This document shows, in pieces, positions 36,822 through 62,905 of a DNA stretch of 64,000 nucleotides. Below the pieces are notes generated by a model that had not been told where the DNA came from, searched no databases, and saw only the letters and a program-made list of their open reading frames with translations. Numbering within the stretch: position 1 is the first letter of the stretch; each line of letters starts with the position of its first letter. Position numbers and translations under genes: made by a program. Source of the DNA: Metabacillus dongyingensis (lineage in GTDB: Bacteria; Bacillota; Bacilli; Bacillales; Bacillaceae); NCBI RefSeq assembly GCF_019933155.2, contig NZ_CP082944.1:684001-748000 (forward strand), in the 5' to 3' direction.

Positions 36822-38070
36822 GCGCGGATGATTCCTCTTTTTTAGCCCAATCCTGGATTTGGGTACTCATAGGGTGCGTATGATGCCTCTTTTTTGGCTC
36901 TATCCAGGATTTGGATACTCATAGAGTGCGAATGCTGCCTCATTTTTGGCCCCATCCTGGATTTGGGTACTCATAGGCTGCGGATGATTCCTTTTTTTTG
37001 GCTCCATCCTGGATTTGGGTACTCAAAGGGTGGGAAAGCTGCCTCTTTTTTGGCTCTATCCTGGAATTAGGTACTCAAAGGGTGCGAATGCTGCCTCTTT
37101 TTTGGCTCAACCTGGATTTGGATACTCATAGAGTGCGGATGATTCCTCTTTTTTGGCAGAATCCTGGATTTGGGTACTCAAAGGGTGCGGATGCTGGCTT
37201 TTTTTTGGCTCCATCCTGGATTTGGGTACTCATAGAGTCCATATGATTCCACTTTCTTGGCTCAACACTGAATTTGGGTACTCAAAGGGTTGGAATGATT
37301 CCTCTTTTTTGGCTCAACACTGAATTTGGGTACTCAAAGGGTTGGAATGATTCCTCTTTTTTGGCTCAACACTGAATTTGGGTACTCAAAGGGTTGGAAT
37401 GATTCTTCTTTTTTGGCTCCATCCTGGATTTGGTTACTCATAGGGTGCGGATGATTTCTTTTTTCTGACTCAATCTTGGATTTGGTTACTCATAGGGTGG
37501 GTATGATTCCTCTTTTCAGGCTCTATCTTGGATTTGGGTACTCAAAGGGTTGGAATGATTCCTCTTTTTTGGCACAATCCTGGATTTGGTTACTCATAGG
37601 GTGCGGATGCTGGCTTTTTTTTGGCTCCATCCTGGATTTGGGTACTCATAGGGTGCGGATGATTCCTTTTTTTTTGACTCAATCTTGGATTTGGGTACTC
37701 ATAGGGTGCGGATGATTCCTTTTTTTTGACTCAATCTTGGATTTGGTTACTCATAGGATGGGTATGATTCCTCTTTTCAGGCTCAATCTTGGATTTGGGT
37801 ACTCAAAGGGTGGGAATGATTCCTCTTTTTTGGCACAATCCTGGATTTGGTTACTCATAGAGTCCATATGATTCCACTTTATTGGCTCAACACTGAATTT
37901 GGATACTCATAGAGTGCGAATGATTCCCCTTTTTTGGCACAATCCTGGATTTGGGTACTCAAAGGGTGGGAATGCTGCCTCTTTTCAGGCTCCATCCTGG
38001 ATTTGGTTACTCATAGAGTCAATATGATTCCTCTTTTTTGGCTCAACACTAAATTAGGATACTCATTGCG
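36822..38070. repeat. 52-bp tandem array A (24 units)
   Basis: The core GGGTACTCAWAGGGT (variants GGATACTC, GGTTACTC) starts at 36861 and recurs 24 times up to 38057; all but two intervals are exactly 52 bp. Between cores each unit carries GGATGATTCCTCTTTTTTGG and a stretch ending CAATCCTGGATTT. Open frames across it shift every unit (52 is not a multiple of 3) and lack ribosome sites, so it is not coding. It lies between licA and licH. Confidence 0.95.
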
Positions 38071-38124
38071 GGCGTCCCCGTTCTTTTTTAAAGGAATAGG
38101 GAAATAAAAGTTTTTATGTATTGA

Positions 38125-38195
38125 TGTCTAGTTTGCCCAGCTCCTTTGCCAGAACTCTGTCATGTCAAAGCTAAACGGGCACTTGCGCTTTTCTA
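38125..38195. repeat. Dispersed Bacillus-type intergenic element
   Basis: TGTCTAGTTTGCCCAGCTCC, a variable middle, then CGGGCACTTGCGCTTTTCTA. From memory, elements beginning TGTC(T/C)AGCTCC and ending GCGCTTTTCT are scattered between genes in many Bacillus and Geobacillus genomes. This looks like a short or degenerate copy. Confidence 0.5.
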
Positions 38196-38219
38196 ATTAA
38201 TTTTAATGAGGTGAATGGG

Positions 38220-39539
38220 ATGAAAATTGTAACGATTGGCGGCGGTTCAAGCTATACACCGGAATTAATTGAAGGATTTATCAAACGCTGGAGCGAGCTT
38301 CCTGTGTCGGAAATCTGGCTCGTTGACATCGAAGCCGGCAAGGAAAAACTGGAGATTGTCGGACAATTGGCCAAGAGAATGATTGAAAAAGCAGGACTTC
38401 CAATAAAGGTTTCATTAACAACAGATCGGAGACTTGCACTGAAAGGAGCGGATTTTGTAACCACCCAAATGCGTATCGGCTCCATAGATGCCCGAATATT
38501 GGATGAGAAAATTCCGCTTAAATATGATGTGATCGGTCAAGAGACAAATGGACCGGGCGGGTTATTTAAAGGGCTGCGAACCATCCCGGTGATTCTTGAT
38601 ATTTGCCGCGATATGGAGGAGCTCTGCCCTGATGCCTGGCTGATCAATTTTACAAATCCTGCAGGAATGGTGACAGAAGCTGTATTAAGATACAGCAAGA
38701 TTACGAAAGTTGTAGGGTTGTGCAATGTACCGATTGGCATGAAAATGCACATAGCTAAAACCCTGAATGTTGAAAGCGGGAGAATCCATATTGATTTTGC
38801 AGGATTGAATCATATGGTATTCGGATTGCGTGTATATTTAGATGGGAAGGACAAAACAGCTGAAGTCATTGATAAGCTGATTGCTGGGGAGAAGCAAATG
38901 TCGATGCAGAACATTGCTTCCCTTGAATGGGAACCGCAATTTTTGAAAGCACTGCAGGCCATTCCATGCCCATATCACCGCTATTATTATAAAACAAGAG
39001 AAATGCTGCAGCAGGAAAAAGAAGAAGCTGCCGTAAGAGGATGCAGGGGAGAAGTTGTGAAACAGCTTGAGAACGATTTGTTCGAACTTTATAAGGATCC
39101 AAACTTATCGATTAAACCTCCGCAGCTGGAAAAGCGGGGAGGAGCTTATTACAGTGATGCAGCCTGCAGCCTGATCAATTCAATCTATAACAACAAAGGG
39201 GACATTCAGACTGTAAATGTCCAAAACAAAGGAGCCATTACGGGTCTTTCATATGAATCTGCTGTAGAAGTGGACTGTATCATTACAAAAGAAGGTCCGA
39301 AGCCGATTGCAATGGGAGAGCTCCCAGTTGCTGTAAACGGACTTGTTCAGCAAATCAAATCGTTTGAGCGGACGGCGGCAGAGGCAGCAGTTACAGGCAG
39401 CTATGAAACGGCTTTGCTCGCCATGACTATTAATCCCCTTGTTCCTTCTGATCGTGTGGCCAAGCAACTCCTTGATGAAATGCTGGAAGCGCATAAAGAA
39501 CACCTTCCGCAGTTTTTCAAAGAAGCATCTTATCGTTAA
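38220..39539 (+). CDS. licH: 6-phospho-beta-glucosidase, GH4 family
   Basis: A 439-residue cytosolic NAD+- and Mn2+-dependent glycosidase. The dinucleotide motif VTIGGGSSYTPELIEGF is at the N-terminus. QETNGPGGLFKGLRTIPVIL, LINFTNPAGMVTEAV and VGLCNVPIGM contain the metal-binding Asn, Cys and adjacent residues. It hydrolyses phosphorylated cellobiose or lichenan products delivered by licBCA. ATG at 38220 lies six bases after GAGGTG; GTG at 38211 is within the ribosome site. Whether it is read from the lic sigma-54 promoter across the array is open. Confidence 0.94.
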   Translation: MKIVTIGGGSSYTPELIEGFIKRWSELPVSEIWLVDIEAGKEKLEIVGQLAKRMIEKAGLPIKVSLTTDRRLALKGADFVTTQMRIGSIDARILDEKIPLKYDVIGQETNGPGGLFKGLRTIPVILDICRDMEELCPDAWLINFTNPAGMVTEAVLRYSKITKVVGLCNVPIGMKMHIAKTLNVESGRIHIDFAGLNHMVFGLRVYLDGKDKTAEVIDKLIAGEKQMSMQNIASLEWEPQFLKALQAIPCPYHRYYYKTREMLQQEKEEAAVRGCRGEVVKQLENDLFELYKDPNLSIKPPQLEKRGGAYYSDAACSLINSIYNNKGDIQTVNVQNKGAITGLSYESAVEVDCIITKEGPKPIAMGELPVAVNGLVQQIKSFERTAAEAAVTGSYETALLAMTINPLVPSDRVAKQLLDEMLEAHKEHLPQFFKEASYR

Positions 39540-39640
39540 TGGTATTTTTAGAGTTTGGTATTGGCGAAGAAAATGGGGTCTGTCATTTTTTAAAAATAAC
39601 GATGTGAAAACAGGTTTTATTAGAAGACAGGAGGAGTCTT

Positions 39641-40330
39641 ATGCCTCATTTTATTATCAATGCAGATGATTTTGGCTATTCACGGGGTGTAAATTACGGA
39701 ATCATTGATGCACATACTGACGGCATTGTAAATTCTGCGACAATGATGGTGAATATGCCTGGTGCACAGCACGCCGTTTCGCTTGCTAAGGAGCATCCCG
39801 AGCTGCAGGTTGGCATTCACTTAACACTCACTTGCGGGAGGGCTGCAAGCGATCAAGTACCTTCTTTAATAGATGATAACGGCTACTTTAAGATTAAGAA
39901 TGATTCTAACCAGAATCAGAATATAAATGCTGCCGAAGTTGAGATTGAATGGGAGACGCAAATTCAGCGGTTTTTGTCATTTGGCCTTGCTCCTTCTCAT
40001 CTTGACAGTCATCATCATGTTCATTCATGGCCAGTACTAGAACAGGTTATAATGAATCTGGCAAATAAGTATGATTTGCCGGTAAGGCGTTTTTGGGAAG
40101 GGGAAAAGGAAGGACTGCAAGCATTCTCTGATGTATTTGTGCATACTTTTTACGGGGATGATTTAAGTCCGGATTATTTTACGGAGTTGAAAAAATCATA
40201 TCAAGGGGATATTCGTGTTGAAATCATGTGTCATCCTGCGTATATTGATGAAGCTCTATTAAAGGGTTCTTCCTACTGCTTGCAGAGAAGCAATGAACTG
40301 TCTATATTAATGGCAGCTCGACGTATATAG
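39641..40330 (+). CDS. ChbG/YdjC-family carbohydrate deacetylase
   Basis: A 229-residue metal-dependent deacetylase. FIINADDFGYSRGVNYGI has the conserved Asp pair. VGIHLTLTCGR and HLDSHHHVHSWP supply metal-binding His residues, and VEIMCHPAY a further His. ChbG removes an acetyl group from chitobiose or chitobiose-6-phosphate. AGGAGG precedes the ATG. The protein ends at MAARRI, about 15-20 residues earlier than I expect from the family, so it may lack the last helix. It follows licH, consistent with use of acetylated disaccharides through the PTS. Confidence 0.85.
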   Translation: MPHFIINADDFGYSRGVNYGIIDAHTDGIVNSATMMVNMPGAQHAVSLAKEHPELQVGIHLTLTCGRAASDQVPSLIDDNGYFKIKNDSNQNQNINAAEVEIEWETQIQRFLSFGLAPSHLDSHHHVHSWPVLEQVIMNLANKYDLPVRRFWEGEKEGLQAFSDVFVHTFYGDDLSPDYFTELKKSYQGDIRVEIMCHPAYIDEALLKGSSYCLQRSNELSILMAARRI

Positions 40331-40768
40331 CTTGCAGATCAAGAGCAAAGTGCCCAAAGGAAACTAATGAATGTGATATGTGCCGAAAAGTGTATTAAGA
40401 AGTGAGTGATTTTGAGAAAGAAGAAACTTCAAAAGATACAAAGAAAAGCTGAAGAATCACTTCAGCTTTTTTGTAGTCTAAAAATCAAATGAGGTAATCT
40501 TACAGCGGGATTCTGCATATAGCTTCCGTGCGAACGGCGTCAGAGGAAAATGTGAATCGTGTGTGAGGAAACGTCAAATAGTGATAGCTGTAATTTATTA
40601 CAAAAAAAGTAGAGTTTAAATTGACATAAAAATCAAATAAAACATCGTTGACAAATACAATAGACTTTACACATACTAACCATATTAGTTGAGGGAAATA
40701 AGAATGATTATCTCTAATGTTATAAAAGGAATCCAAGATTATCTATTAAATTTCTAAGGAGTTAGAAA
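40331..40768. other. Intergenic region with terminator and regulator promoter
   Basis: It holds a terminator (40444-40473) and TTGACA at 40648, 18 bp before CATACT (40672), a likely promoter for the RpiR gene. No gene seen. Confidence 0.5.
40444..40473 (+). terminator. Terminator of the licH-deacetylase unit
   Basis: AAAAGCTGAAG pairs with CTTCAGCTTTT around AATCA, followed by T residues. Confidence 0.88.
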
Positions 40769-41551
40769 ATGGAAAAACCACTGTTTGATATTCCGTCAAG
40801 TACCTATTCAATGTTAAGTGAGACCGAACGTTATCTTCTTGAATATATTCACAAAAATTTAAATGATATTGCAACTATGTCGATTGTCACACTAAGTGAG
40901 CGTGCAGCTGTTTCTACGGCAACTATCGTAAGGTTAATGAAGAAAATAGGTTACAATGGCTACACTTCTTTTAAGTATAGATTAAAACAGGATAAGAAAA
41001 TGGTTGATTACGATGATCAGCTTGGTGATATTGATGTTTCAATTAAGCAAGCGATAAAGAAAAATGAGGAAGAAGTTCTTAGAACGATTCAGCTTCAAAG
41101 CATCGGACAAATTGAGGATGCTGTACAGAAGATATACAATGCGGAAAAGATTTATATCTTTGGCCGCGGCTTCTCGGAAATGCTGGCCAAAGAAATGACG
41201 GTCAAGCTTCAGGTATTGGAAAAAACGTGTGAGAACCACGATGACCCGAACATTATAAGAATCAAATCTCGTAAAATGGAGAAAAATGAACTGGCTATTT
41301 TCATTTCGTTAAATGGTGAAACTCCAGAGCTCGTTGAAGCTTGTCAAAATCTAAGCATGAAACAAGTTACTACAATCACTCTAACCACCCGGATCGATTC
41401 AACTTTAAGCAAGCTATCTGATATGACATTACTAGGGTATAAGAGCGACCAATCTCTATTTCCAGAATATGAAGTTCGCTCACGTCTCTCACTCAATGTC
41501 ATTGCTCGGATTCTTCTTGATGCCTATGTGATTCGTACTAGGAATAAATAA
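40769..41551 (+). CDS. RpiR/MurR-family transcriptional regulator
   Basis: A 260-residue regulator. Residues 1-80 form the RpiR helix-turn-helix: LSETERYLLEYIHKNL, then SERAAVSTATIVRLMKKIGY. Residues 110-250 are a SIS sugar-phosphate-binding domain with KIYIFGRGFSEMLAKEMTVK. It probably senses a sugar phosphate and controls the kinase-PTS-aldolase operon that follows. AAGGAG precedes the ATG. In B. licheniformis an RpiR gene accompanies the tagatose pathway, which supports the assignment. Confidence 0.9.
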   Translation: MEKPLFDIPSSTYSMLSETERYLLEYIHKNLNDIATMSIVTLSERAAVSTATIVRLMKKIGYNGYTSFKYRLKQDKKMVDYDDQLGDIDVSIKQAIKKNEEEVLRTIQLQSIGQIEDAVQKIYNAEKIYIFGRGFSEMLAKEMTVKLQVLEKTCENHDDPNIIRIKSRKMEKNELAIFISLNGETPELVEACQNLSMKQVTTITLTTRIDSTLSKLSDMTLLGYKSDQSLFPEYEVRSRLSLNVIARILLDAYVIRTRNK

Positions 41552-41555
41552 TTTC

Positions 41556-41590
41556 AAGCCCTTCAAATTACAAGATTTGAGGGCTTTTTT
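41556..41590 (+). terminator. Terminator of the RpiR gene
   Basis: AAGCCCTTCAAAT pairs with ATTTGAGGGCTT (one bulge) and T6 follows. Confidence 0.88.
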
Positions 41591-41720
41591 ATGTGGTGAG
41601 CTAAATCAGAGTTCATATTCCCAAATCGCGGATGTTCAATAATCCGGTTGGGGTTATCCTAAATGATGATACTTAAGGAAATTCAGATAGTGAAATACGA
41701 GTAAGAAAGGCTTTACATAA

Positions 41721-41738
41721 TCTGAAAACATTTTCAGA
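41721..41738 (+). promoter_or_regulatory. Palindromic operator before the tagatose-type operon
   Basis: TCTGAAAA-CA-TTTTCAGA is an 8+8 bp palindrome. It fits the cre consensus except for one central base, so CcpA or the RpiR regulator may bind. A possible -10 CATAAT lies directly upstream (41715-41720). Confidence 0.6.
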
Positions 41739-41790
41739 AATAAACATGAGATACTTTCCTTATCAACAAATGAAGGAAGGTGAAGCAACC

Positions 41791-42714
41791 GTGCTTTATA
41801 CATGCACCATGAACACTGCCATTGATTTGTACGTAGCGGTTGATGAATTAAAACCAGATACAGTAAACCGCACGCACGATGAGGATTACCAGCCGAATGG
41901 TAAAGGGGTCAACGTATCAATCATGCTAAAGCGCTTAGGTATTGAAAGTGTTGCTTTAGGGTTTATCGCTGGGTTTTCTGGTAGATATATAGAAGAATCA
42001 TTACTGGAAATGGGCATTAAGACTGATTTTGTCAAAGTCGATGGCATTACACGCATTAACGTTTTTATAAATTCAGAGAATGAATACAAACTCGTTAATC
42101 AAGGACCGATGATTGAGCAAAAAGAGCAAGAGATCCTTCTGAAGAAAGTGAAGGAGATCCCTGCTGGCAGCATGCTCATTGTCTCGGGGAGTCTTCCAAA
42201 AGGTGTGTCTGATTCCATTCTCGTTGACATCGCCAAAATTTGCAGCAAACATGACGTGAAGCTCGTTCTTGATTCAAGTGTGTGCACAGTAATCGAAACG
42301 CTTGAGTATAAGCCATATTTGCTGAAACCAAATGAGGAAGAAGTAGCCAATCTATTTAATAAGGCTCATCCACTTTCAGAGACAGAGCTTATTGAATGCG
42401 GGAAAGAGCTTCTTAAACAAGGAGCTCAGAATGTAATTATCTCAAGAGGAAAGGATGGAGCCCTTTATTTTTCACAAGAAGATTTGTTAAAAGCCACGTC
42501 ACCACAAGGACAAGTTGTCAATACTGCTTGCTCGGGTGATGCAATGCTTGCCGCCTTTATCGGTAAGCGTATGCAGGAAAATTCTTTGGAAGACGCACTC
42601 GCTCATGCCGTTGCAACAGGTGCCTCTACTGCTTTTTCAAAAGGGCTAAGTGATTTAGCCGATATACCATCTCTTCTTAATCAAGTAACCATTTCAGCTT
42701 ATAAGGGGGCATAA
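41791..42714 (+). CDS. PfkB-family sugar-1-phosphate kinase (tagatose-1-phosphate kinase type)
   Basis: A 307-residue kinase of the 1-phosphofructokinase group. It begins with YTCTMNTAIDLYV. NGKGVNVSIMLKRLG is the substrate-side PfkB motif, and QVVNTACSGDAMLAAFIG the C-terminal ATP/anion-hole motif in which Asp is the base. GTG at 41791 is seven bases after GGAAGGTGA; upstream in-frame codons from 41746 have no site. With PTS IIBC, IIA and a class II tagatose-type aldolase following, it likely turns tagatose-1-phosphate into tagatose-1,6-bisphosphate (TagK); fructose-1-phosphate is the alternative. Confidence 0.85.
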   Translation: MLYTCTMNTAIDLYVAVDELKPDTVNRTHDEDYQPNGKGVNVSIMLKRLGIESVALGFIAGFSGRYIEESLLEMGIKTDFVKVDGITRINVFINSENEYKLVNQGPMIEQKEQEILLKKVKEIPAGSMLIVSGSLPKGVSDSILVDIAKICSKHDVKLVLDSSVCTVIETLEYKPYLLKPNEEEVANLFNKAHPLSETELIECGKELLKQGAQNVIISRGKDGALYFSQEDLLKATSPQGQVVNTACSGDAMLAAFIGKRMQENSLEDALAHAVATGASTAFSKGLSDLADIPSLLNQVTISAYKGA

Positions 42715-42716
42715 CC

Positions 42717-44159
42717 ATGGGACGCAAAAAAATAATAGCCGCAACTGGCTGTCCGACCGGAATTGCACATACATTCATGGCTGCTGAAGCGTTAAAAAAA
42801 GCAGCTGCTAATCTAGATGTTGATATTAAAGTCGAAACACATGGTCAAGTTGGAATTGAAAATGGTTTAACAGAACAGGATATTCGCGAAGCAGATGGAG
42901 TTATTGTCGCTGCAGATAAGGATGTTAATACGGACCGTTTCCATGGCAAACGTCTAGTAGAAGTACCGGTTGCACGAGGCATTCGTGCACCAAAAGACTT
43001 AATCAGCCAAATCTTAAATGAAGAAGCGTCTGTTCACTATGTTAGCGGTTACACAAAAGATAACCAGAAAGAATCGCCGAATTCAGCTGGAAAGGAAACA
43101 TCATCAACTAATTCAGGCAGCAATAAAAAATGGCTGCATACCATCTATAAAGATCTTATGAACGGTGTCTCTCACATGCTCCCATTCGTTGTCGGAGGGG
43201 GAGTGCTCATTGCACTTTCGTTCTTGTTTGGAATTTATTCATCTGATCCCAATCATGAACAGTACAACCAGTTTGCCGCCTTATTAAATAAAATCGGCGG
43301 ATTAAGTTTTAGCTTAATGGTTCCAATTCTTGCGGCTTTTATCGCTGAATCCATTTCAAAGCGTCCAGGTATGGTTGTTGGTTTTATCGGAGGTCTTCTT
43401 GCTAACCAAGGAGGAGCTGGCTTTCTGGGTGGGATAATTGCCGGTTTTCTAGCCGGTTACCTTATTATTTTGTTACAAAAGCTGTTGAAAAACATGCCAA
43501 AATCTTTAGATGGATTGAAATCAATTTTCTTGTATCCAGTCTTAGGTATTTTCCTGATTGGTGCGATTATGACACCGATTCTTGTCCCTGTTACAGGTTT
43601 AAATGAAGGAATGATGGCCTTCTTAGCCTCTGTACAATCATCTAATCCGCTTCTTCTTGGGATTATTGTTGGAATGATGTCTGGCTTCGACATGGGCGGT
43701 CCCTTTAACAAGGCGGCTTACGTAACTGGAACCGCGTTATTATCTGAAGGCAATCTTTACTTTATGGCTGGTGTATCTGCGGCTTGTATTGCACCGCCGC
43801 TTATTATTGCCTTTGCTACAGTGTTTTTCCGTAAGTATTTTACGAAAGATGAAAGAAATGCAGGAATGATTAACTTTATTTTAGGATCTACGCACATCAC
43901 AGAAGGAGCGATTCCATTTGCGGCAAAGAATCCAGTTGTCGTCATTCCGATTATCATGCTAGGGTCTTCAATTGCTGCCATTATGACATATATGTTTGGC
44001 GTACAGGTCCCAGCTCCACACGGAGGGTTTTTAGTTCTTCCAGTAGTGACAGGCGCCATCCAATGGGTGTTTTCCATTCTGGCAGGTTCCATTATCGCAG
44101 CCGTAATTTATGGCTTGTATCGTAAAAAAATAGCCAAAAATATCCCAGTAGAGGAGTAA
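42717..44159 (+). CDS. PTS fructose-family IIBC component
   Basis: A 480-residue protein. Residues 1-100 are the IIB domain with phospho-acceptor Cys in AATGCPTGIAHTFMAAEAL. A polar linker (about 110-140) leads to the membrane IIC domain with roughly nine helices, including MLPFVVGGGVLIALSFLFG, then SGFDMGGPFNKAAYVTG, typical of the fructose family, and STHITEGAIPFAA. It imports and phosphorylates a ketohexose at C1. It starts 2 bp after the kinase stop. IIA is a separate protein here. Confidence 0.93.
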   Translation: MGRKKIIAATGCPTGIAHTFMAAEALKKAAANLDVDIKVETHGQVGIENGLTEQDIREADGVIVAADKDVNTDRFHGKRLVEVPVARGIRAPKDLISQILNEEASVHYVSGYTKDNQKESPNSAGKETSSTNSGSNKKWLHTIYKDLMNGVSHMLPFVVGGGVLIALSFLFGIYSSDPNHEQYNQFAALLNKIGGLSFSLMVPILAAFIAESISKRPGMVVGFIGGLLANQGGAGFLGGIIAGFLAGYLIILLQKLLKNMPKSLDGLKSIFLYPVLGIFLIGAIMTPILVPVTGLNEGMMAFLASVQSSNPLLLGIIVGMMSGFDMGGPFNKAAYVTGTALLSEGNLYFMAGVSAACIAPPLIIAFATVFFRKYFTKDERNAGMINFILGSTHITEGAIPFAAKNPVVVIPIIMLGSSIAAIMTYMFGVQVPAPHGGFLVLPVVTGAIQWVFSILAGSIIAAVIYGLYRKKIAKNIPVEE

Positions 44160-44165
44160 TTAATC

Positions 44166-44627
44166 ATGACAAATTTGATCCAGCCAAATTTTATTCAATT
44201 ACAGGCTACAGCTTCATCGCAAACAGGTGTCTTTCAATGCATAGCGGACATCGCTGTTCAAAATGGCATTGCCACATCAGCAGATGAGGTTATTAAAGGC
44301 TTACAAACTCGTGAAGCTCAAAGCACAACTGGCTTCCAGGATGGCTTTGCTATCCCGCACACACAAACAGCAGCTGTAGTAAAGCCTGCCATAGTAATTG
44401 TTCGTACCGAAACGGGTATTGATTGGGAATCATTTGACGACCAGCCAGCTTTTTTCTTTCTTTCTCTTCTGATTCCGAAATCAGAAGCTGGCACAACACA
44501 TCTACAAGCATTGTCATCTCTATCACGGGTTCTCATGGACGAAGACAAACGACAAGAACTGCTGGATGCGAAAACCAATGAAGCACTGGCTGCATTCATA
44601 GAAAAAGCAATCAGGGAGGAAAACTAA
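44166..44627 (+). CDS. PTS fructose-family IIA component
   Basis: A 153-residue cytosolic phosphocarrier of the fructose/mannitol IIA type. The active His is in TREAQSTTGFQDGFAIPHTQ near residue 65. LSLLIPKSEAGTTHLQALSS contains the second conserved His. It lies 6 bp after the IIBC gene and 1 bp before the aldolase gene. It receives phosphate from HPr for the IIBC permease. Confidence 0.92.
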   Translation: MTNLIQPNFIQLQATASSQTGVFQCIADIAVQNGIATSADEVIKGLQTREAQSTTGFQDGFAIPHTQTAAVVKPAIVIVRTETGIDWESFDDQPAFFFLSLLIPKSEAGTTHLQALSSLSRVLMDEDKRQELLDAKTNEALAAFIEKAIREEN

Positions 44628-44628
44628 A

Positions 44629-45498: not shown

Positions 45499-45551
45499 GA
45501 CAAGATCAATGTATAGATCGGCGTAAATGCGCTATGAAAAGGTATGAGGAA

Positions 45552-45592
45552 AAAAAGCCGATTGTTCGTATGAATAGGACAATCGGTTTTTG
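45552..45592 (+). terminator. Terminator after the aldolase gene
   Basis: CCGATTGT pairs with ACAATCGG, with an A run before and a T run after it. Confidence 0.82.
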
Positions 45593-45628
45593 GTTTTAAC
45601 AAAGACTAACGTAAGGAAGGGTTATCAT

Positions 45629-46483: not shown

Positions 46484-46490
46484 CAATCTT

Positions 46491-50475: not shown

Positions 50476-50485
50476 GCTAAAAGAT

Positions 50486-53070: not shown

Positions 53071-53084
53071 CCTCTTGCGAATGA

Positions 53085-53928: not shown

Positions 53929-53957
53929 GGCATAAATTTCATCGCTGATGCCAGCCG

Positions 53958-54410: not shown

Positions 54411-54528
54411 AGCAGATCCCTTCCTGTTCCAAATCTCTCTCTTATTATCGCCTAAAAAGGGGGAAAGAAGCAAAGGATAGGGAACTTCCGGCCAGATATG
54501 ATTAAGCATTATGCAGAGCGACAGACTC

Positions 54529-55545
54529 GGTACCAGGGAGCCCAACTCGCAAAAATTGCTTGCCAATTAGCGAAAAAGAAACTCCAACTTGCAAGAATCC
54601 CGGTTCAACTTGCAGAAAGGAGCATTCAATTCGCAAGGCACAAATTCAATGAAAAAACCACTTAATAATGCCCATTTCTAGCTGCGGTTGGCCAGTTGAA
54701 AAAAGATTCAGCATAAAAATAAAGAGTTTCAGCTGTGTAGAGCATCAGGGCATGGTACCAGGGAGCCCACCTCGCAAAAATCGCTGGCCAATTAGCAAAA
54801 ATGCAACTCCATTTCCCAGGAATCCCGGCTCAACTTGCAGAAAGGAGCATTCAATTCGCAAGGCACAAATTCAATGAAAAAACCACTTAATAATGCCCAT
54901 TTCTAGCTGCGGTTGGCCAGTTAAAAAAAGATTCAGCATAAAAATAAAGAGTTTCAGCTGTGTAGAGCATCAGGGCATGGTACCAGGGAGCCCACCTCGC
55001 AAAAATCGCTGGCCAATTAGCAAAAATGCAACTCCATTTCCCAGGAATCCCGGCTCAACTTGCAGAAAGGTGCATTCAATTCGCAAGGCACAAATTCCAA
55101 TGAAAAAACCTCATAATAATGCCCATTTCTAGCTGCGGTTGGCCAGTTAAAAAAAGATTCATCATAAAAGTAAATAGTTTCAGCTGTGTATAGAGCATCA
55201 GACACGGTATGGGGGAGCCCAACTCGCAAAAATCGCTGGCCAATTAGCGAAAAAGCAGCTCCAACTCGCAAGCATCCAGGTTCAACTCGCATAAACGGGC
55301 ATTCAATTCGCAAGGTTCAAATTCCAATGAAAAAACCTCATAATAATGCCCATTTCTAGCTGCCGTTGGCCAGCTAAAAAAAGATTCAGCATAAAAATAA
55401 AGAGTTTCAGCTGTGTATAGAGCATCAGACACGGTACAGGGGAGCCCAACTCGCAAAAATCGCTTGCCAATTAGCGAAAAAGCAGCTCCAACTCGCAAGA
55501 ATCCCGGTTCAACTCGCATAAACGGGCATTCAATTCTCAAACAAA
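54529..55545. repeat. Array B: about 226-bp repeats containing 21-bp subunits
   Basis: Four full copies and one partial start at GGTAC(C) 54529, 54754, 54979, 55206 and 55433 (periods 225, 225, 227, 227). Each copy has five consecutive 21-bp subunits headed CAACTCGCAA (variants CAATTAGCGA, CAACTTGCAA, CAATTCGCAA), then a spacer of about 120 bp containing CCATTTCTAGCTGCGGTTGG. Open frames on both strands across it lack ribosome sites. It lies between the lipoprotein and the DUF915 gene. Confidence 0.93.
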
Positions 55546-55681
55546 ATTCAAGTTAGAAATTTCAGCTGAACAGATAAGCAGAGATATCAGTTATCTAAAA
55601 TAAGTCCGTTTAAAGTAAAAAAAAAGGGGTATACATATAGCTTACGACAAGAAAATCGCAGAAGACGAGAGGATTCCATAA

Positions 55682-56515
55682 ATGAAATTAAAAAAGAATA
55701 TCGCACTTATAGCAGCAATTAGTTTAGCAGCAATCGTTTTTATCATTCAGACTATAAAGCCAGAGATTTCAAATGGAGCCAGTGATGGAAAGCACGAAGG
55801 AACGCCGACTGTCTTTGTGCATGGCTATAGAGGCACGCTGAATTCGTTCGAAGGCATGATGGAAAGATTTCAGTCGGATTATGAATGGGGAGAAAAAACT
55901 CTAATTTGCACCTCTGATAAGAGAGTCGCGGAGTGTAAGGCCCTGACAGACGAAAAAGTGAAAAACCCCCTTATCCATGTTTACTTTGAAGACAACGATT
56001 CGAATTTTGAGAAGACAAGCATAGAACTCGGAAATATTCTTAAGCTTTTAAAGGGAAAATACGGACACGATAAGGTCAATATCGTTGCGCATTCTATGGG
56101 AGGTCTTGTTTCCGTCAATTACATTCAGGAAACAAGACAGGAAAAAGAGTTTCCTAAAGTAGAAAAGCTCGTTACAATCGGAACTCCTTTTAAAGGCATT
56201 AAGAGAGAAGTATTTGAAAAAAGATATAAGGAGAAAAAGCATGATTTAATCGCAGATTCACAGGCGATTCAGGAATTATATTCAGAAAAGGATAACTTTG
56301 ATCCAAATACACAAGTATACTCAATTGCAGGTAAAATCGGTAAAAAAGAAGACGGCGACGGTCTTGTCTCAGTCCACAGTGCAACTTCCTTAAAAAATGT
56401 AGTCGCTTCAGATCATTACCGCGAACAAATCATTGTATCGAAGAAAGCAACACATAATGGATTGCATGAGAATAAAGAAGTCGATGAAGAAGTCGGCAGA
56501 TTTTTGTGGAAGTAG
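55682..56515 (+). CDS. DUF915-family alpha/beta hydrolase, secreted or anchored
   Basis: A 277-residue protein with an N-terminal hydrophobic helix (residues 7-25) that acts as signal anchor. The hydrolase domain begins PTVFVHGYRGTLNSFEGM (oxyanion region). The nucleophile Ser is in NIVAHSMGGLVSVNYI, Asp in GDGLVSVHSA, and His in ATHNGLHEN near the end. Family members are lipase- or esterase-like with unknown substrates. GAGAGG precedes the ATG. A separate transcription unit between repeat array B and the LacI gene. Confidence 0.85.
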   Translation: MKLKKNIALIAAISLAAIVFIIQTIKPEISNGASDGKHEGTPTVFVHGYRGTLNSFEGMMERFQSDYEWGEKTLICTSDKRVAECKALTDEKVKNPLIHVYFEDNDSNFEKTSIELGNILKLLKGKYGHDKVNIVAHSMGGLVSVNYIQETRQEKEFPKVEKLVTIGTPFKGIKREVFEKRYKEKKHDLIADSQAIQELYSEKDNFDPNTQVYSIAGKIGKKEDGDGLVSVHSATSLKNVVASDHYREQIIVSKKATHNGLHENKEVDEEVGRFLWK

Positions 56516-56520
56516 AAGAA

Positions 56521-56548
56521 TTGAGAGTCCAGTGCGGGCTCTTTTTTG
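56521..56548 (+). terminator. Short terminator after the DUF915 gene
   Basis: GAGTCC and GGGCTC form a short stem (one G-T pair), followed by T6. Confidence 0.6.
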
Positions 56549-56629
56549 TGGATCAAATGGAAATTGCTTAAGTATAAAAAATTAAATATTTTCCATATTG
56601 TAAATGCTTTCATATGGTGGTACTATAAA

Positions 56630-56651
56630 TTTACGAAAACGTTTACGTAAA
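56630..56651 (+). promoter_or_regulatory. LacI-type operator upstream of the regulator gene
   Basis: A near-perfect 22-bp palindrome built from TTTACG, AAACGTTT and CGTAAA, with one asymmetric base in each half. It shares AAACGTTT with the two operators before the ABC operon, so the LacI protein probably autoregulates. Confidence 0.75.
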
Positions 56652-56670
56652 AGCAGGGAGAAGGTGGGAA

Positions 56671-57681
56671 ATGAATTATACCATCAAAGATGTAGCAAAA
56701 AAAGCGAATGTTTCGATTGCAACTGTTTCAAGAATTCTTAATAATCAGAAGGGTTACTCTGAAAAAACGAAACGGAAGGTACTTGAAGCGATTGAAGAAT
56801 TGGACTACCATCCAAACGCCATTGCAAGAGGACTTATCAATAAGAAAACGTCAACGATTGGTGTATTATTTCCGGCACTTTCAAGTATGTTCGTAACGGA
56901 ACTGTTAGCCGGAATAGAAAAAGCAGCTCATCAGCTTGGATCAAGCGTGATTGTCTGCCATACAGAGTCCAACGGTTCAAAAACAATGAAATACCTGCAA
57001 TTGCTCAATGAAAAGCGTGTTGACGGAATTATTTTCACAAGTGAAATCCTAAAAGAGGAATACTATGAATTTATTCAGAAAATGAGTATTCCCTTAGTTC
57101 TTTTATCGACGGAATCACGTATTTATTCAGTGCCATACGTCAAAGTGGATGACAGGCATGCGGCGTATTCTGCGGCTCAGTACTTAATTAAAAAAGGCCA
57201 CAAGCGCATCGGCATGATCAGCGGAAATCAAAATGATCTTATAGCAGGAAAACCAAGAATTGATGGGTTTAAGGATGCGTTACTAGATTATGGCTTTCCT
57301 GTTCATGACAGTCAGATTGTCTGCAGTGAAGGATTTACCTTTGCAGACGGCAGAGAAGGATTAAAGAAAATGAGACAGCTGGCGCCTGAAGTGACAGCAA
57401 TCTTTGCGGCAAGCGATGAAATTGCTTTTGGAGCGATTTCAGAGGCTTATCAGCAGGGCATAAGAATACCCGAGGAATTATCGATTATCGGCTACGATAA
57501 CTTGAGTATTGCCGAAATGTCGATACCCCCGTTAACTTCACTCGCTCAGCCCTTATATGAAATGGGTGAGAAGGCAGCAAAAATGATATTTGACATGATC
57601 AATGGCGATCAGCTCGTAGAAAGCCGGATTATGCCGCATTCCATTAAGGAAAGAAGCAGTGTAGTAAAAAAAGAGGAATAG
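56671..57681 (+). CDS. LacI-family transcriptional regulator
   Basis: A 336-residue repressor. The N-terminal HTH reads YTIKDVAKKANVSIATVSRI, with hinge helix HPNAIARGL. The periplasmic-binding-like effector domain has TIGVLFPALSSMFVTELLAG and IFAASDEIAFGAI, ending with SIKERSSV. ATG follows GGGAGAAGGTGG. The operators upstream of this gene and before the adjacent ABC operon share AAACGTTT, so it very likely controls that operon in response to its sugar. Confidence 0.93.
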   Translation: MNYTIKDVAKKANVSIATVSRILNNQKGYSEKTKRKVLEAIEELDYHPNAIARGLINKKTSTIGVLFPALSSMFVTELLAGIEKAAHQLGSSVIVCHTESNGSKTMKYLQLLNEKRVDGIIFTSEILKEEYYEFIQKMSIPLVLLSTESRIYSVPYVKVDDRHAAYSAAQYLIKKGHKRIGMISGNQNDLIAGKPRIDGFKDALLDYGFPVHDSQIVCSEGFTFADGREGLKKMRQLAPEVTAIFAASDEIAFGAISEAYQQGIRIPEELSIIGYDNLSIAEMSIPPLTSLAQPLYEMGEKAAKMIFDMINGDQLVESRIMPHSIKERSSVVKKEE

Positions 57682-57702
57682 CTTCTTCTTTTTTGTAAAT
57701 GA

Positions 57703-57764
57703 CGTAAACGTTTACGCAGAATGAGCGGCAATTTTTTTTTTGCAGAAAAGAGTAAACGTTTACT
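57703..57764 (+). promoter_or_regulatory. Pair of LacI operators before the ABC-thuA operon
   Basis: CGTAAACGTTTACG (57703-57716) and AGTAAACGTTTACT (57751-57764) are perfect 14-bp palindromes whose centres are 48 bp apart. Each also fits the cre consensus at 12 of 14 positions, so CcpA could bind too. The spacing would allow a repression loop. Confidence 0.85.
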
Positions 57765-57788
57765 TATTATGAACTGGGAGGCGAAATG

Positions 57789-59021
57789 ATGATCAAGAAA
57801 ATTACTGCACTTTCGGCAGGCATGGTGCTTGGCGCTGCCATATTGGCGGGATGCTCTTCAGGGGAAGAAGCGGACGGGAAGGTCACGCTGAATCTTTTCT
57901 CCAACAAATCTGAAAATATCAATACATATAAAGGTCTGATAGAAGAGTTTGAAGCAGAAAATCCAAATATCAGGATCAAATTTGATTCTCCTCCGGAAGC
58001 AGAAACCGTGCTGCGGACAAAGCTTATTAAGAATGATATTCCTGACGTTATGCTGATTGCAGGTAATGCTACATACGGTGAATTGGGAAGAGCAGGAGTG
58101 CTTGAGGATTTTGCTGATACAGAACTTATCGATTCCATCCAGCCTTCCTATCTCGACATGATTGACCGCTTAGTAGGCCCTGAAAAAGATGGGGTCTACG
58201 GACTGCCATATGCGACAAACGCAAACACGGTTATCTATAACAAACAGAAGTTTGAAGAGCTTGGCCTTGAAGTTCCGAAAACGTGGGATGAATTTATCGC
58301 CATATTGGAAAAAGCTAAAGCTGCTGGTGAAATACCAATCTATTTGACTCTTAAAGATGCATGGACTGGAATGATTTCCTTGAACTCTCTTGGAGGAAAT
58401 CTGGCAGGCGAAGAATTTGCAGAAAAGAAAAGCTCTGGAAAGACGTCATTTGTAAAGAGCTACGATGAAGTCGCAGACAAGATGCTGACCCTTACAGAAT
58501 ACGGACACAAAGACAACTTTGGAATTGCCTACGGCGATGGCAACAATGCGTTCGCAGCAGGCGAGGGTGTCATGTATATTCAGGGGAACTGGGCGATTCC
58601 TGAGATTTTAAAAGCAAATCCTGAAGCAGAGCTTGGCGTTTTTCCGATGCCTGTAACCAACGACCCAGAGCAAAACAAACTTGTTTCAGGTGTTGATGTT
58701 CTGCTGACAATCAGCAAAGACAGTGAGCACAAAAAAGAAGCCGAAAAATTCCTCAAATTTATGCTGAAGAAAGAAACAGCAAAACGGTACATTGATGAGC
58801 AAAAGGCTTTCTCTGCAATAGAGGGAGTTTATCAGGAGGATCCGGTTTTCGAAGGAATAAAAGAAAACTTTGAAAAAGGAAAAATCACCAGTTTCCAAGA
58901 TCACTATTATCCAGCAGGAATGGGAGCAGAAAACATCCTTCAGGAATTTCTGATCGAGAAAAAGAAAAGCGCTTTTTTGAAGAAAATGGATAGAGAGTGG
59001 GAGAAGGTAGAGGATCGCTAA
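57789..59021 (+). CDS. Sugar-binding lipoprotein of the thuA operon
   Basis: A 410-residue family 1 binding protein. The signal peptide ends in LAGCSSG. VTLNLFSNKSENINTYKGLI, VYGLPYATNANTVIYNKQKF and the GEGVMYIQGNWAIPEI segment are typical. ATG at 57789 is seven bases after GGAGG; ATG at 57786 is only four away. First gene of a four-gene operon behind two LacI operators. Confidence 0.92.
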   Translation: MIKKITALSAGMVLGAAILAGCSSGEEADGKVTLNLFSNKSENINTYKGLIEEFEAENPNIRIKFDSPPEAETVLRTKLIKNDIPDVMLIAGNATYGELGRAGVLEDFADTELIDSIQPSYLDMIDRLVGPEKDGVYGLPYATNANTVIYNKQKFEELGLEVPKTWDEFIAILEKAKAAGEIPIYLTLKDAWTGMISLNSLGGNLAGEEFAEKKSSGKTSFVKSYDEVADKMLTLTEYGHKDNFGIAYGDGNNAFAAGEGVMYIQGNWAIPEILKANPEAELGVFPMPVTNDPEQNKLVSGVDVLLTISKDSEHKKEAEKFLKFMLKKETAKRYIDEQKAFSAIEGVYQEDPVFEGIKENFEKGKITSFQDHYYPAGMGAENILQEFLIEKKKSAFLKKMDREWEKVEDR

Positions 59022-59046
59022 TAATTTTTAGAAGGGAGATAAATCA

Positions 59047-59910
59047 ATGAATAATAAAAACAAAGTATTTCTCATCATGACTGTTCCTGCCGTTCTCCTG
59101 TTCTTTATTTTTCATACGTATCCTGCCCTTCAGGGGATATTCTACAGTTTTACGGACTGGAGAGGATACGGGGAGTGGAACTTTGTCGGTCTGAAAAACT
59201 ATCTGAATGTATTTAAAGATGAAAGAGCTCTCAATGCGTACGGCTTCACCTTTAAGTTTGCCATTATTTCAACGATTCTTGTGAATTTTTTCAGCTTGCT
59301 TGTGGCAATGGGGCTTAATGCAAAGATTAAGTTTCAAAAAACACTTCGGGCTGTCTATTTCATGCCTTATATCCTAAGTATTCTGATCGTTGGTTTTATC
59401 TTCAACTTCATTTTCACTCATTATCTGCCTGATATTGCAGGCGGCCTTGGAATTGAGGCATTATCTAAAAATATTCTCGGTGATCCGAACCTTGCCTGGG
59501 TTGGTATCGTTATCGTAGCTGTTTGGCAGGCAATCGCGTTCAATACAATCCTGTACCTTGCAGGTCTTGTAACCATTACGGAGGATTTATATGAAGCCGC
59601 AAGCATTGACGGTGCTGGAATTTGGACAAAGTTCTGGAAAATCACCTTTCCGCTGATTGCACCATTTTTTACTATTAATATGATTTTATCCATGAAAGGT
59701 TTTCTGATGGTTTTTGACCAGATCGTTGCCCTTACAGGCGGAGGACCCGGTCAATCAACAGAATCGATTTCGCTTCTGATCTATAGAGGCGGCTTCCAGG
59801 GCGGAGAATTTGCCTATCAGTCTGCAAATGCGGTCATTTACTTTATTGTTATTGTTATCTTTTCTATCTTTCAGCTTAAGATTCTTGAAAAAAGAGAGGT
59901 GGGCAACTGA
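59047..59910 (+). CDS. CUT1 sugar ABC permease (MalF type), thuA operon
   Basis: A 287-residue permease with six helices. The EAA loop is EAASIDGAGIWTKFWKITFP near residue 181; FDQIVALTGGGPGQSTES follows. AAGGGAGA precedes the ATG. Its TGA overlaps the start of the next permease (TGATG). As in the first ABC operon there is no ATPase gene. Confidence 0.92.
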   Translation: MNNKNKVFLIMTVPAVLLFFIFHTYPALQGIFYSFTDWRGYGEWNFVGLKNYLNVFKDERALNAYGFTFKFAIISTILVNFFSLLVAMGLNAKIKFQKTLRAVYFMPYILSILIVGFIFNFIFTHYLPDIAGGLGIEALSKNILGDPNLAWVGIVIVAVWQAIAFNTILYLAGLVTITEDLYEAASIDGAGIWTKFWKITFPLIAPFFTINMILSMKGFLMVFDQIVALTGGGPGQSTESISLLIYRGGFQGGEFAYQSANAVIYFIVIVIFSIFQLKILEKREVGN

Positions 59911-60731
59911 TGATCAGCAAAAAGACAAACTGGCCTGTCACCATTCTCTTAATTTTAGGGGCAATTTTCATTATCCTGCCGCTGTACTTAACCATTACCA
60001 TTGCATTTAAAACACCGCAGGAGCTTGCGGGAAACCTGCTTGCTCTGCCGCAGTCATGGTCTTTTGACAACTTTGCGAAAGCGATAGAAATGACGAATTT
60101 CTTCAATGCATTAAAAAACAGCGTATTCGTCACTGTATTAGTCGTCATTTTTACTGTCCTGACGAATTCAATGGTCGCTTACGCGATTGCACGCAACATG
60201 CATAAAAAGTTTTATAAATTCACGTTTTACTATTTTGTCAGTGCGATGTTCATCCCTTTCCCGATCATTATGCTTCCGATTGTAAGACAAACAGCATTGT
60301 GGGGCATGGATAATCTGGTGGGATTAGTCATTTTGTACATTGTCTACAATCTATCTTTCAATATCTTTATCTATGTAGGGTATATAAGATCCATTCCGAA
60401 AGAATTGGAAGAAGCTGCAATAGTAGACGGCGCAACAACATGGGGAGTATTCTGGAAGGTTATTTTCCCGCTGCTTGCACCAATGAATGCAACTGTGGCC
60501 ATCCTTACATGTCTTGGGGCGTGGAATGATTTTCTCCTGCCGCTCGTCGTTCTGAGCGACAGCGACATGGCAACATTGCCGCTTGTGCAGTATATTTTCC
60601 AATCACAGTTCAGCACAGACTATAACCTGGCATTTGCCTCTTATCTGCTTGCACTGATTCCGATGATTATTGTCTATGTTTTTGCACAAAAATGGATCAT
60701 CAGCGGAGTAATGAAAGGATCAATTAAATAA
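59910..60731 (+). CDS. CUT1 sugar ABC permease (MalG type), thuA operon
   Basis: A 273-residue permease with six helices and EAA loop EEAAIVDGATTWGVFWKVIF near residue 165. It ends IISGVMKGSIK. It starts at a TGATG overlap with the upstream permease and is followed after 91 bp by thuA. Confidence 0.92.
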   Translation: MISKKTNWPVTILLILGAIFIILPLYLTITIAFKTPQELAGNLLALPQSWSFDNFAKAIEMTNFFNALKNSVFVTVLVVIFTVLTNSMVAYAIARNMHKKFYKFTFYYFVSAMFIPFPIIMLPIVRQTALWGMDNLVGLVILYIVYNLSFNIFIYVGYIRSIPKELEEAAIVDGATTWGVFWKVIFPLLAPMNATVAILTCLGAWNDFLLPLVVLSDSDMATLPLVQYIFQSQFSTDYNLAFASYLLALIPMIIVYVFAQKWIISGVMKGSIK

Positions 60732-60822
60732 TTAGGCTTAATTAATAGGCTGGATTATTGTATATTGAAATAGATAGATTAGCTTAAATATTAAAAATAA
60801 TTCACTATAGGGAGATTTAACA

Positions 60823-61545
60823 ATGAAAATTACAGTTTGGAACGAAAACCGCCATGAACAAAAAAATCCAACAGTAGCAGAAATTTATCCTGAAGGCATT
60901 CACGGCGCCATCGCTAACTTTTTAAAAGAAAACGGCTTTGATGCTGCGACTGCAACATTAGATCAGCCTGAACACGGTTTAACAGAAGAAGTATTAAGCG
61001 AGACAGACGTTCTTTTCTGGTGGGGACACCTTGCACATGATGAGGTAACTGACGAAATCGTTGAACGAGTTCAAAAACGAGTACTTGAAGGAATGGGCTT
61101 AGTTGTTCTTCATTCAGGACATTTCTCAAAAATCTTTAAAAAGCTGATGGGTACATCTTGTGACCTTAAATGGCGCGAAGCCGACGACAAAGAGCGTCTA
61201 TGGGTTGTTGATCCTTCTCATCCAATTACGGAAGGAATCGGCGAGTACATCGAAATTGAAAAAGAAGAAATGTACGGAGAGCATTTTGATATTCCGGCAC
61301 CAGATCAATTAGTATTTGTCAGCTGGTTTGAAGGCGGAGAAGTGTTCCGTTCAGGATGCACATACCAAAGAGGAAACGGAAAGGTTTTCTACTTCCGCCC
61401 TGGCCATGAAACATACCCGACTTACCATAACAAAGAAATTCAAAAAGTATTAGTGAATGCGGCTAAATGGGCAGCACCTACAAAACGCGAGTATCCGGTT
61501 TACGGAAATGCTCAGCCGCTTGAGAAAATTACTGTTAAGTCATAA
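60823..61545 (+). CDS. thuA: ThuA-like trehalose-utilisation family protein
   Basis: A 240-residue cytosolic protein with the ThuA class I glutamine-amidotransferase-like fold. It begins [42 protein letters not shown] and [20 protein letters not shown] are family hallmarks with conserved His residues. In rhizobia ThuA, with ThuB, acts in trehalose or sucrose catabolism through 3-keto sugars; no thuB dehydrogenase is present here. GGGAGA precedes the ATG. It suggests that the ABC system imports trehalose, sucrose or a related disaccharide. Confidence 0.9.
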
Positions 61546-61548
61546 TGA

Positions 61549-61590
61549 AAAAGGGTACGAAATTTCCCAGGAATTTCGTACCCTTTTTTT
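61549..61590 (+). terminator. Terminator of the ABC-thuA operon
   Basis: AAGGGTACGAAATT pairs with AATTTCGTACCCTT around TCCCAGG, then T7. Confidence 0.93.
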
Positions 61591-61639
61591 GTTGTTTTGA
61601 CAGCATGATTTGTGGGGGAGAAGAGGGGAATTTGGGGAT

Positions 61640-62905
61640 GAACCGCTATATATGAGTTCCCAAATACCGGAGAAGAGTCCAGTTTGAGTACTCAAAGGGT
61701 AGTTATAAGTCTCTAAATCGAGAGAAGAGTCCTGTTTGAGTACTCAAAGGGTAGTTATGATTCCTCAAAACGAGAAAGAAATCCTGTTTGGATACTCAAA
61801 GGGTAGTTATGAGTCCCCAAAACGAGGAAGAAATCCTGTTTGAGTACTCAAAGGGTAGTTATGATTCCTCAAAACGAGGGAGAAATCCAGTTTGGGTACT
61901 CAAAGAGTAGCTATGAGTCCCCAAATCAAGAGAAGAGTCCAGTTTGAGTACTCAAAGGGTAGCTATGATTCCCCAAATCGAGAAAAGAGTCCAGTTTGGG
62001 TACTCAAAGAGTAGCTATGAGTACCCAAAACGAGGGAGATATCCTGTTTGGGTACTCAAAGAGTAGCTATGAATCCTCAAATCGAGAGAAGAGTCCAGTT
62101 TGAGTACTCAAAGGGTAGCTATGGTTCCCAAAATCGAGAGAACAGTCAGGTTTGAGTAATTAAAGGGTAGTTATGAGTCCCCAAATCGAGAGAAGAGTCC
62201 AGTTTGAGTACTCAAAGGGTAGTTATGATTCCTGAAAACGAGTGAGAAATCCTGTTTGGGTACTCAAAGAGTAGCTATGATTCCCCAAATCGAGAAAAGA
62301 GTCCAAGTTTGGGTACTCAAAGAGTAGCTATGAGTCCCCAAAACGAGTGAGAAATCCTGTTTGGGTACTCAAAGAGTAGCTATGAGTCCCCAAATCAAGA
62401 GGAGAGTCCAGTTTAAGTACTCAAAGGGTAGCTATGAGTCTCCAAAACGAGGGAGAAATCCTGTTTGGGTACTCAAAGAGTAGCTATGAGTCCCCAAATC
62501 AAGAGGAGAGTCCAGTTTAAGTACTCAAAGGGTAGCTATGAGTCTCCAAAACGAGGGAGAAATCCTGTTTGGGTACTCAAAGGGTAGATATGATTCCTCA
62601 AATCGAGAGAAGAGTCCAGTTTGGGTACTCAAAGAGTAGCTATGATTCCCCAAAACGAGAGAAGAGTCAAGTTTGAGTACTCAAAGGGTAGCTATGAGTC
62701 CCCAATTCGAGAAAAGAGTCCAGTTTGGGTACTCAAAGAGTAGCTATGATTCCCCAAATCGAGAGAAGAGTCCAGTTTGAGTACTCAAAAGGTAGTTATG
62801 ATTCCCCAATCCGCGCTAGAAATCATGTTTGGGTACTCAAAGAGTAGCAATGATTCCACAAATCGAGAAATAAATCATGTTTGAGTACTCAAGGATAACT
62901 ATGAA
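61640..62905. repeat. 52-bp tandem array C (24 units)
   Basis: Cores of the form GRGTACTCAAAGRGT start at 61686 and recur 24 times to 62883; 20 of 23 intervals are exactly 52 bp (others 51 or 53). Between cores lies TAGYTATGATTCCYCAAA, then one of two tails (CGAGAGAAGAGTCCAG or CGAGGGAGAAATCCTG). The unit is clearly related to that of array A (same core, same ATGATTCCYC, same period). It fills the gap between the thuA terminator and the response regulator stop codon. Confidence 0.95.

Follow-up and report, generated by a model that had tools for sequence, protein, structure and literature searches.

Tandem 52-bp arrays of Metabacillus dongyingensis as possible dispersed halves of a two-part element with a NERD nuclease-like gene

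Analysis of a 64,000-nucleotide stretch of the Metabacillus dongyingensis genome (NZ_CP082944.1, positions 684,001 to 748,000; from now on referred to as the window) centred on two intergenic tandem arrays of 52-bp units, arrays A and C, whose family lies beside genes encoding NERD-domain nuclease-like proteins. NERD gene and adjacent array form a linked pair across Bacilli, which we regard as virtually certain, and arrays of the linked type are also found in trans, where they are rapidly gained and lost and change in copy number. We put the probability that A and C are the dispersed array halves of a two-part element, made up of a NERD nuclease-like gene and its cognate tandem array, at roughly 55%.

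Both arrays are real. Tandem Repeats Finder (TRF) assigned a period of 52 to each, with 23.5 copies at 83% match in A and 24.1 copies at 81% match in C, and a scan for the core sequence found 24 cores in either array, spanning 1196 bp (A) and 1197 bp (C) from first to last core, as an earlier note made from the sequence alone had described. The two 1-bp exceptions it gave for A (51 and 53) hold, whereas its three for C do not: the core scan yields one (53; a surplus half-site match at 62016 was left out) and a longer phased chain, which counts 25 units in A and 25 in C, yields two. Each 52-bp unit carries a dyad (here GKMNTCAWAG-N6-WATGANNCCC) and a linker in which an A-run lies opposite the dyad; the ATGA(T/G)TCCYC motif downstream of the core can be recognized from the sequence as the core's inverted half-site partner. 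That the tails of A and C differ completely, as had been stated, is right only in part, with a weak pattern that includes an A-run at unit positions 43-45 being shared across arrays.

In four genomes representing three genera, clustering of neighbouring proteins singled out a NERD-domain protein lying 79-110 bp from an array. Other recurring neighbour families were mostly located farther away, with response regulators also found within 9 and 138 bp. The NERD protein was searched for in 50 genomes, part array-bearing and part array-poor controls. All 50 contained a match at E 0.001, with 1-13 matches per genome (distant members and fragments included); 45 encode a close homologue, while five (G259, G266, G270, G313 and G339) have distant ones only. 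A tandem array was found beside 86 of the 89 close copies examined from these 45 genomes (70 + 19), a subfamily of ~304 amino acids. TRF periods at the 86 loci were 52 (69 loci), 51 (10), 53 (5), 104 and 102, and in 82 of them the array starts 4-191 bp past the NERD stop codon. Copies counted as lacking an array are L267, where none is present, and L229 and L232, both located at a contig end. Larger gaps of 412-700 bp between gene and array are seen at L299, L309, L314 and L215, the latter two being broken genes, and some copies have a 5′ array as well (e.g. L208, L209, L299, L303 and L309). In ten of these genomes, 4.6-kb loci picked at random (ten in total) contained no array of at least 90 bp and none of at least 55 bp. 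Unit sequence differs between NERD lineages, and the period is common to them; 16 of the 45 genomes with a close NERD protein have no match to the GTACTC-type unit pattern.

The two halves also co-occur across genomes. Searched for without any demand on period, the single-unit pattern is present in 43 of 397 genomes of the order, belonging to 24 of 135 genera, with 14 of the 43 having one match only, some of them probably due to chance. The NERD gene (E at most 1e-40) is patchily distributed and found in 144 of 396 genomes of the order. It is present in 28 of the 29 genomes with at least two unit matches compared with 117 of 368 others (Fisher 2e-12; G460, among the 28, was counted from the 50-genome search), the lone exception being G306, which has one unit match on each strand. 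At a threshold of at least one unit match, 36 of 43 genomes have the gene. Phylum-wide, NERD matches at E at most 1e-10 were found in 3 of 299 genomes, the third being a distant homologue (27%) with a 22-bp array. A profile of 53 real dimers extends the array family into another order, with two genomes, one labelled Ammoniphilus by protein name; outside the class it returned one marginal match only, under strict filters and with a small number of candidates scored in each genome. Elsewhere, a single exact dimer match was located in Marinilactibacillus. No match was found to two exact unit patterns in viral contigs, to two arrays or the NERD protein in plasmids, or to one array or the NERD protein in phages, collections from which the records nearest the window's genome may be missing; a phage- or plasmid-borne origin was rejected on these results.

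The period is far more constant than the sequence. Pooling 63 arrays from 25 genomes gives 572 of 640 spacings at exactly 52 bp; the commonest spacing within an array is 52 bp for 61 arrays and 53 bp for the other two. The half-site distance is fixed in 570 of the 572 units preceding a 52-bp step, and tail identity across the 63 arrays is 37%. Some pooled arrays had been found by a 52-bp dimer pattern or a dimer model; the order-wide set is free of that demand, and TRF on its loci again returned 52 for nearly all arrays, with 53 for L141. Left out of the pooled count were L099 and L107 (weak core), L136 (contig end), the already counted loci L122, L202 and L204-L206, and arrays of fewer than three phased units in one locus set or fewer than four in another. 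The view that spacing is kept more strictly than sequence, put forward in the earlier note, is thus borne out.

The window's genome (G000) and that of a sister species (G005) allow the behaviour of individual arrays to be followed. The core has 206+115 matches in the window's genome at up to two mismatches, compared with 5 for a reversed control, and therefore does not recur by chance; we read many reverse-strand matches as echoes of the near-palindromic core. TRF found 52-bp arrays at nearly all stretches around the listed matches in both genomes, those of G000 being at least the arrays among the matches listed; L091 and L093 of G005, taken for single matches, showed no array by TRF. At L093 a single opposite-strand unit occupies the same terminator-flanked site as the 18-unit array L111 of G000 (by eye). 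Copy number in 32 arrays ranges from 3 to 31, with spacings of 52 (340 times), 53 (28), 51 (12), 50 (1) and 55 (1). Sixteen loci were compared between the two species, with flanking DNA mostly 90-97% identical. Arrays are present in both at seven loci, with unequal copy numbers each time (G000/G005): 25/15 phased units at array A (13.9 copies by TRF in G005), 7/6 at L068-L079, 22/15 at L069-L095, 19/6 and 11/8 at L074-L083, where both arrays flank a NERD gene, 31/4 at L076-L081 and 17/8.9 at L071-L103. Units at L069, L071 and L076 have strongly diverged between the species, with the period still at 52; at L069, identity is 75-77% between arrays versus 93% in the flank. Two G000 arrays (L072 and L111) are faced by a single relic unit in G005, four (C, L070, L073 and L078) are absent at the orthologous site, and three G005 arrays (L080, L082 and L090) are absent in G000. 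No orthologous match was made for L075, L077, L194 and L195 of G000 or L084-L087 and L092 of G005.

Unequal copy numbers combined with a constant 52 bp at orthologous loci indicate that copy number is free to change and period is not. Selection on 24 copies, proposed in the earlier note, therefore has to be given up, and the equal copy number of A and C is a coincidence, the sister-species locus of A having ~15 units and that of C none. The note had reasoned that free variation of copy number and period among close strains, or many arrays with unrelated periods, would make selection on 24 x 52 unlikely; copy number does vary freely, but the period does not, and no array with this core and an unrelated period was seen among those examined.

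A second NERD subfamily is associated with arrays of a different period. No 52-bp array accompanies ten distant NERD homologues (22-26% identity); seven of the ten have a 20/21-bp array adjoining the gene instead. At 30 loci of this second subfamily (~325 amino acids), arrays of 20/21 bp or multiples thereof lie within 400 bp at 17 and other periods, some of them multiples of ~20.5, at 4, whereas none of 86 unselected 800-bp windows had a 20/21-bp-type array at the same thresholds. These arrays can be 5′ or 3′ of the gene and are often 5′. The window's genome has seven NERD matches, one partial, and an array adjoins five. One second-subfamily gene at ~4825 kb (G000:C1) has a 5′ array of 216-bp blocks built from 21-bp TTTGCGAATTGG-like units. 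The third array of the window, array B, in which CAAYTHRC motifs are mostly 21 bp apart inside each 225-bp block, aligns with this array by blastn at 69% over 1008 bp (E 4e-103) and, judged from this similarity, is a dispersed copy of a 21-bp-type NERD-side array. The window thus holds dispersed arrays of both types. The nuclease gene linked to the 52-bp type lies ~2.4 Mb away. Identity between the array A unit and the array 3′ of P0001, a NERD gene of the same genome, is 0.87. Array C fits the array family in core and period but has no close relative among the NERD-linked units sampled.

P0001 matches the NERD profile (Pfam PF08378) with E 1.9e-18 and 67.5 bits (cut-off 22.1). The E..D..(E/D)xK residues of PD-(D/E)XK enzymes are kept on the restriction-like fold of the protein and almost invariant among NERD copies. 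Four cysteines are invariant, and the predicted protein combines a nuclease fold with a C-terminal end that may be winged-helix-like. A sequence search of the PDB gave no significant match, and the top PDB matches found by Foldseek, R2 retrotransposon proteins and VC1899, have low TM-scores; in our reading of the predicted model they would reflect the shared nuclease fold only. CRISPR-ancillary and restriction nucleases are among the fold neighbours.

Based on these features, we hypothesize that the winged-helix and cysteine-rich end of a NERD dimer binds each dyad. Cognate binding of a NERD protein to its own array unit seems to us a good bet. Since 52 and 21 bp correspond to about five and two helical turns, either spacing would set neighbouring proteins on one DNA face and favour cooperative binding, and contacts between neighbours could fix the 52 ± 1 bp step. 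Steps of 53 bp are tolerated and accumulate as in L076, pointing to a constraint on neighbours and not on the whole array. The phased protein-binding platform suggested in the earlier note from the five helical turns agrees with these results, and a linked gene with a predicted winged-helix-like C-terminal end fits it better still. More speculatively, the PD-(D/E)XK domain might nick or cut bound arrays, and the ensuing repair might expand and homogenise units and copy them into intergenic DNA, giving a nuclease-driven satellite. Such nuclease-driven mobility of the arrays is a tentative proposal, at slightly under even odds. A little more doubtful still is the wider idea that NERD genes and arrays constitute a class-wide selfish or host-adopted element in Bacilli, with a diversified set of sequence-specific nucleases that each read their own dyad and write and spread satellites phased at five or two helical turns, and that this element is the source of most phased intergenic tandem repeats in these genomes, the window's three included.

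Several observations weigh against a two-part element of this kind. No array was detected by TRF at 9 of the 30 second-subfamily loci or beside two of the seven NERD matches in the window's genome. The array C unit is only 0.58 identical to the NERD-linked array L208, which is near background, and, when part of the NERD copies was compared, no more than 35 of 54 dispersed arrays had their best match in a NERD-linked array from the same genome and not in one from another genus. The inverted repeat does not exceed shuffles in 43 of 86 consensus units. Variation in the cysteine-rich loop does not follow unit sequence beyond relatedness (partial r 0.04, 32/300 permutations), and units following protein lineages could come from linkage alone. 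Target-site duplications were not seen at empty sites, by eye only. Finally, just 1 of 38 NERD genes has an own-unit site upstream.

Four narrower ideas were rejected: autoregulation of NERD genes by their own upstream unit, on the count just given; a specificity mapped to the cysteine-rich loop, on the non-significant partial matrix correlation (the C-terminal region, with r 0.066 and 3/300 permutations, is too weak to use); dispersed arrays as remnants of lost NERD genes, given that the arrays examined have no NERD pieces next to them, apart from L074, L083, L125 and L141, where the NERD locus is intact; and an RNA hairpin, on the pairing results given below.

The main rival explanation, in our estimate an unlikely one, is sequestration or defence. 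Here the array would store or decoy the nuclease, beside the gene and in trans, until it is freed against invading or damaged DNA; arrays would grow by ordinary recombination and be kept since their loss frees the nuclease. In its favour are the conserved nuclease site, the arrays found at 86 of 89 gene loci, the occurrence of NERD domains in proteins of defence systems (PglW and MkoA matched weakly, MAD6 weakly and below its cut-off) and the fold neighbours named above, but it does not account for arrays scattered over many loci and gained or lost between sister species, or for several paralogues that each have their own array. NERD proteins could instead be sequence-specific nucleoid proteins whose phased arrays organise or insulate DNA at gene 3′ ends, the nuclease fold being incidental. 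We consider such an architectural role improbable: although it would suit the strict helical period, the A-run opposite the dyad and the location of 34 of 35 arrays outside divergent gene pairs, it is at odds with near-invariant catalytic residues, with a distribution limited to 144 of 396 genomes, and with loci at which arrays are quickly gained or lost and units diverge. A segregation site or nucleoid platform as such, also considered in the earlier note, is without support.

It is quite improbable that the system works at the RNA level, with gene and 3′ array co-transcribed and the repeat RNA as partner, as in type III toxin-antitoxin systems. Arrays do lie a short distance 3′ of NERD genes and dispersed arrays mostly at gene 3′ ends, and pairing in 53 dimers slightly exceeds column shuffles (66.7% vs 63.7%, 0/500), in a test that relatedness can inflate. 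The core pairs 7-29 and 9-27, however, are unpaired in 41 and 37 of the 53 dimers, half-site pairing in 31 array consensuses is at chance bar pair 5-31 (28 vs 23.8 expected), and the unit occurs in either orientation relative to the NERD gene (by eye). Second-subfamily arrays, as noted, are often 5′, and a search of the window against Rfam at the gathering threshold returned only rRNA and tRNA, with no match for the arrays. Least probable by far are neutral minisatellites with a period that is a historical accident and an incidental place beside NERD genes. Copy number drifts freely, and slippage and unequal exchange typically produce higher-order duplications, but a 52-bp mode in 61 of 63 arrays despite 37% tail identity and arrays at 86 of 89 NERD loci versus 0 of 10 random ones contradict this explanation.

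Among known systems, repetitive extragenic palindromic (REP) elements and REPINs with their RAYT enzymes come nearest. They consist of small extragenic palindromic units, with a GTAG/CGTC tetranucleotide at the foot of REP palindromes, found in arrays and as dispersed copies and served by a dedicated linked enzyme gene. The NERD system shares palindromic extragenic units, arrays, trans copies and a linked enzyme gene, but its enzyme is a PD-(D/E)XK NERD protein, and its arrays are strictly phased, reach 31 units, contain an A-run linker and include a second 20/21-bp class. Y1 (HUH) transposases (PF01797) have no match in G000 or G005 and occur only in G002 and G003 of seven genomes; identity with REP/RAYT was rejected on their absence from G000 and G005. 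Mycobacterial interspersed repetitive unit/variable-number tandem repeat (MIRU/VNTR) minisatellites are tandem repeats of ~50 bp that are scattered over intergenic regions, some inside operons, and vary in copy number. NERD-type arrays are likewise dispersed, intergenic, tandem and variable in copy number, but their unit varies by locus, their period is fixed across genera and a nuclease gene is linked. In type III toxin-antitoxin systems (ToxIN), a tandem-repeat antitoxin RNA is encoded upstream of a nuclease toxin gene. The adjoining nuclease gene is a common feature; NERD repeats differ in that they lie 3′ of the gene (on either side of it in the second subfamily), are longer, form a dyad in the DNA and have trans copies, and the protein has a NERD PD-(D/E)XK fold. 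The type IIS-like enzymes FokI and BspD6I, found among the structural matches, similarly join a PD-(D/E)XK fold to a separate DNA-binding part, but NERD-system sites are phased arrays beside the gene. CRISPR loci also combine tandem repeats with a nearby nuclease gene. NERD arrays, in contrast, have no unique spacers, are homogenised over the whole 52-bp unit (TRF match 75-95% in period-52 rows) and are dispersed in trans. A figure legend lists NERD among "putative CRISPR auxiliary genes" (PMC10910872), possibly because such arrays had been called CRISPRs.

No description of 52-bp or NERD-linked arrays in Bacilli was found in the open-access papers searched (bioRxiv and most subscription journals were outside the search), and this array family, large in Bacillus-like bacteria, has apparently gone undescribed so far. 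Because REP/RAYT, the nearest system, fails the enzyme test and no description was found, we count the NERD-array pair as a new kind. An odd 52-bp spacing now has a candidate protein, and an unexplained class of bacterial satellites can be tested as a protein-DNA system. Should each NERD protein turn out to bind its own array and act on it, the family would represent a large natural set of dyad-specific nucleases. A new route for the origin and spread of repeats in bacterial genomes would then be at hand, as would a function for a family now named by domain only, and the arrays would probably account for some false CRISPR calls and assembly breaks. Contigs end or start in or beside 52-bp arrays or the NERD gene at L229, L232, L136, L137 and L139, making it probable that the arrays break short-read assemblies.

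Gene context was determined for 35 arrays using a simple open reading frame caller, with L099 and L107 kept and orthologous loci of the two species counted separately: tandem gene pairs enclose 23 of them, convergent pairs 11 and a divergent pair 1, compared with 94 tandem, 36 convergent and 34 divergent gaps in the background, which includes the arrays' own. The genes on either side of array A are co-directional with each other and those around array C convergent (Table 1).

Table 1 Repeat arrays of the window and genes flanking arrays A and C (window coordinates).
Feature	Position	Strand	Description	Basis
Array A	36824..38046	+	24 cores, 52-bp units TTTGGGTACTCATAGGGTGCG-AATGATTCCTC...	TRF and core scan
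Array B	54515..55551	no strand	225-bp higher-order repeat of CAAYTHRC motifs	TRF and motif spacing
Array C	61651..62904	+	24 cores, 52-bp units TTTGAGTACTCAAAGGGTAGC-TATGAGTCCCCAAA...	TRF and core scan
Phosphotransferase system (PTS) lactose/cellobiose IIA gene	36465..36791	+	Upstream flank of A	Pfam PF02255
Family 4 glycosyl hydrolase gene	38211..39539	+	Downstream flank of A	Pfam PF02056/PF11975
ThuA-domain gene	60823..61545	+	Upstream flank of C	Pfam PF06283
Response regulator gene	62913..63608	-	Convergent on C	Pfam PF00072

A terminator-like hairpin can be seen in the sequence at ~61551-61590, 3′ of the ThuA-domain gene. Elsewhere in the window, positions 6814-13337 hold an rRNA operon followed by a large tRNA cluster. 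A separate dispersed repeat family with a 122/123-bp period (GACAGACAGATAAGGATC...CTGGCCGAGGAG) is present in the same genus at L032, L040, L097 and L101, and a stretch resembling it stands in place of array C at the G005 site. At the G005 site of L078 (L192 4500-4760), a further repeat of TTTACTTTCC units takes the place of the array (by eye).

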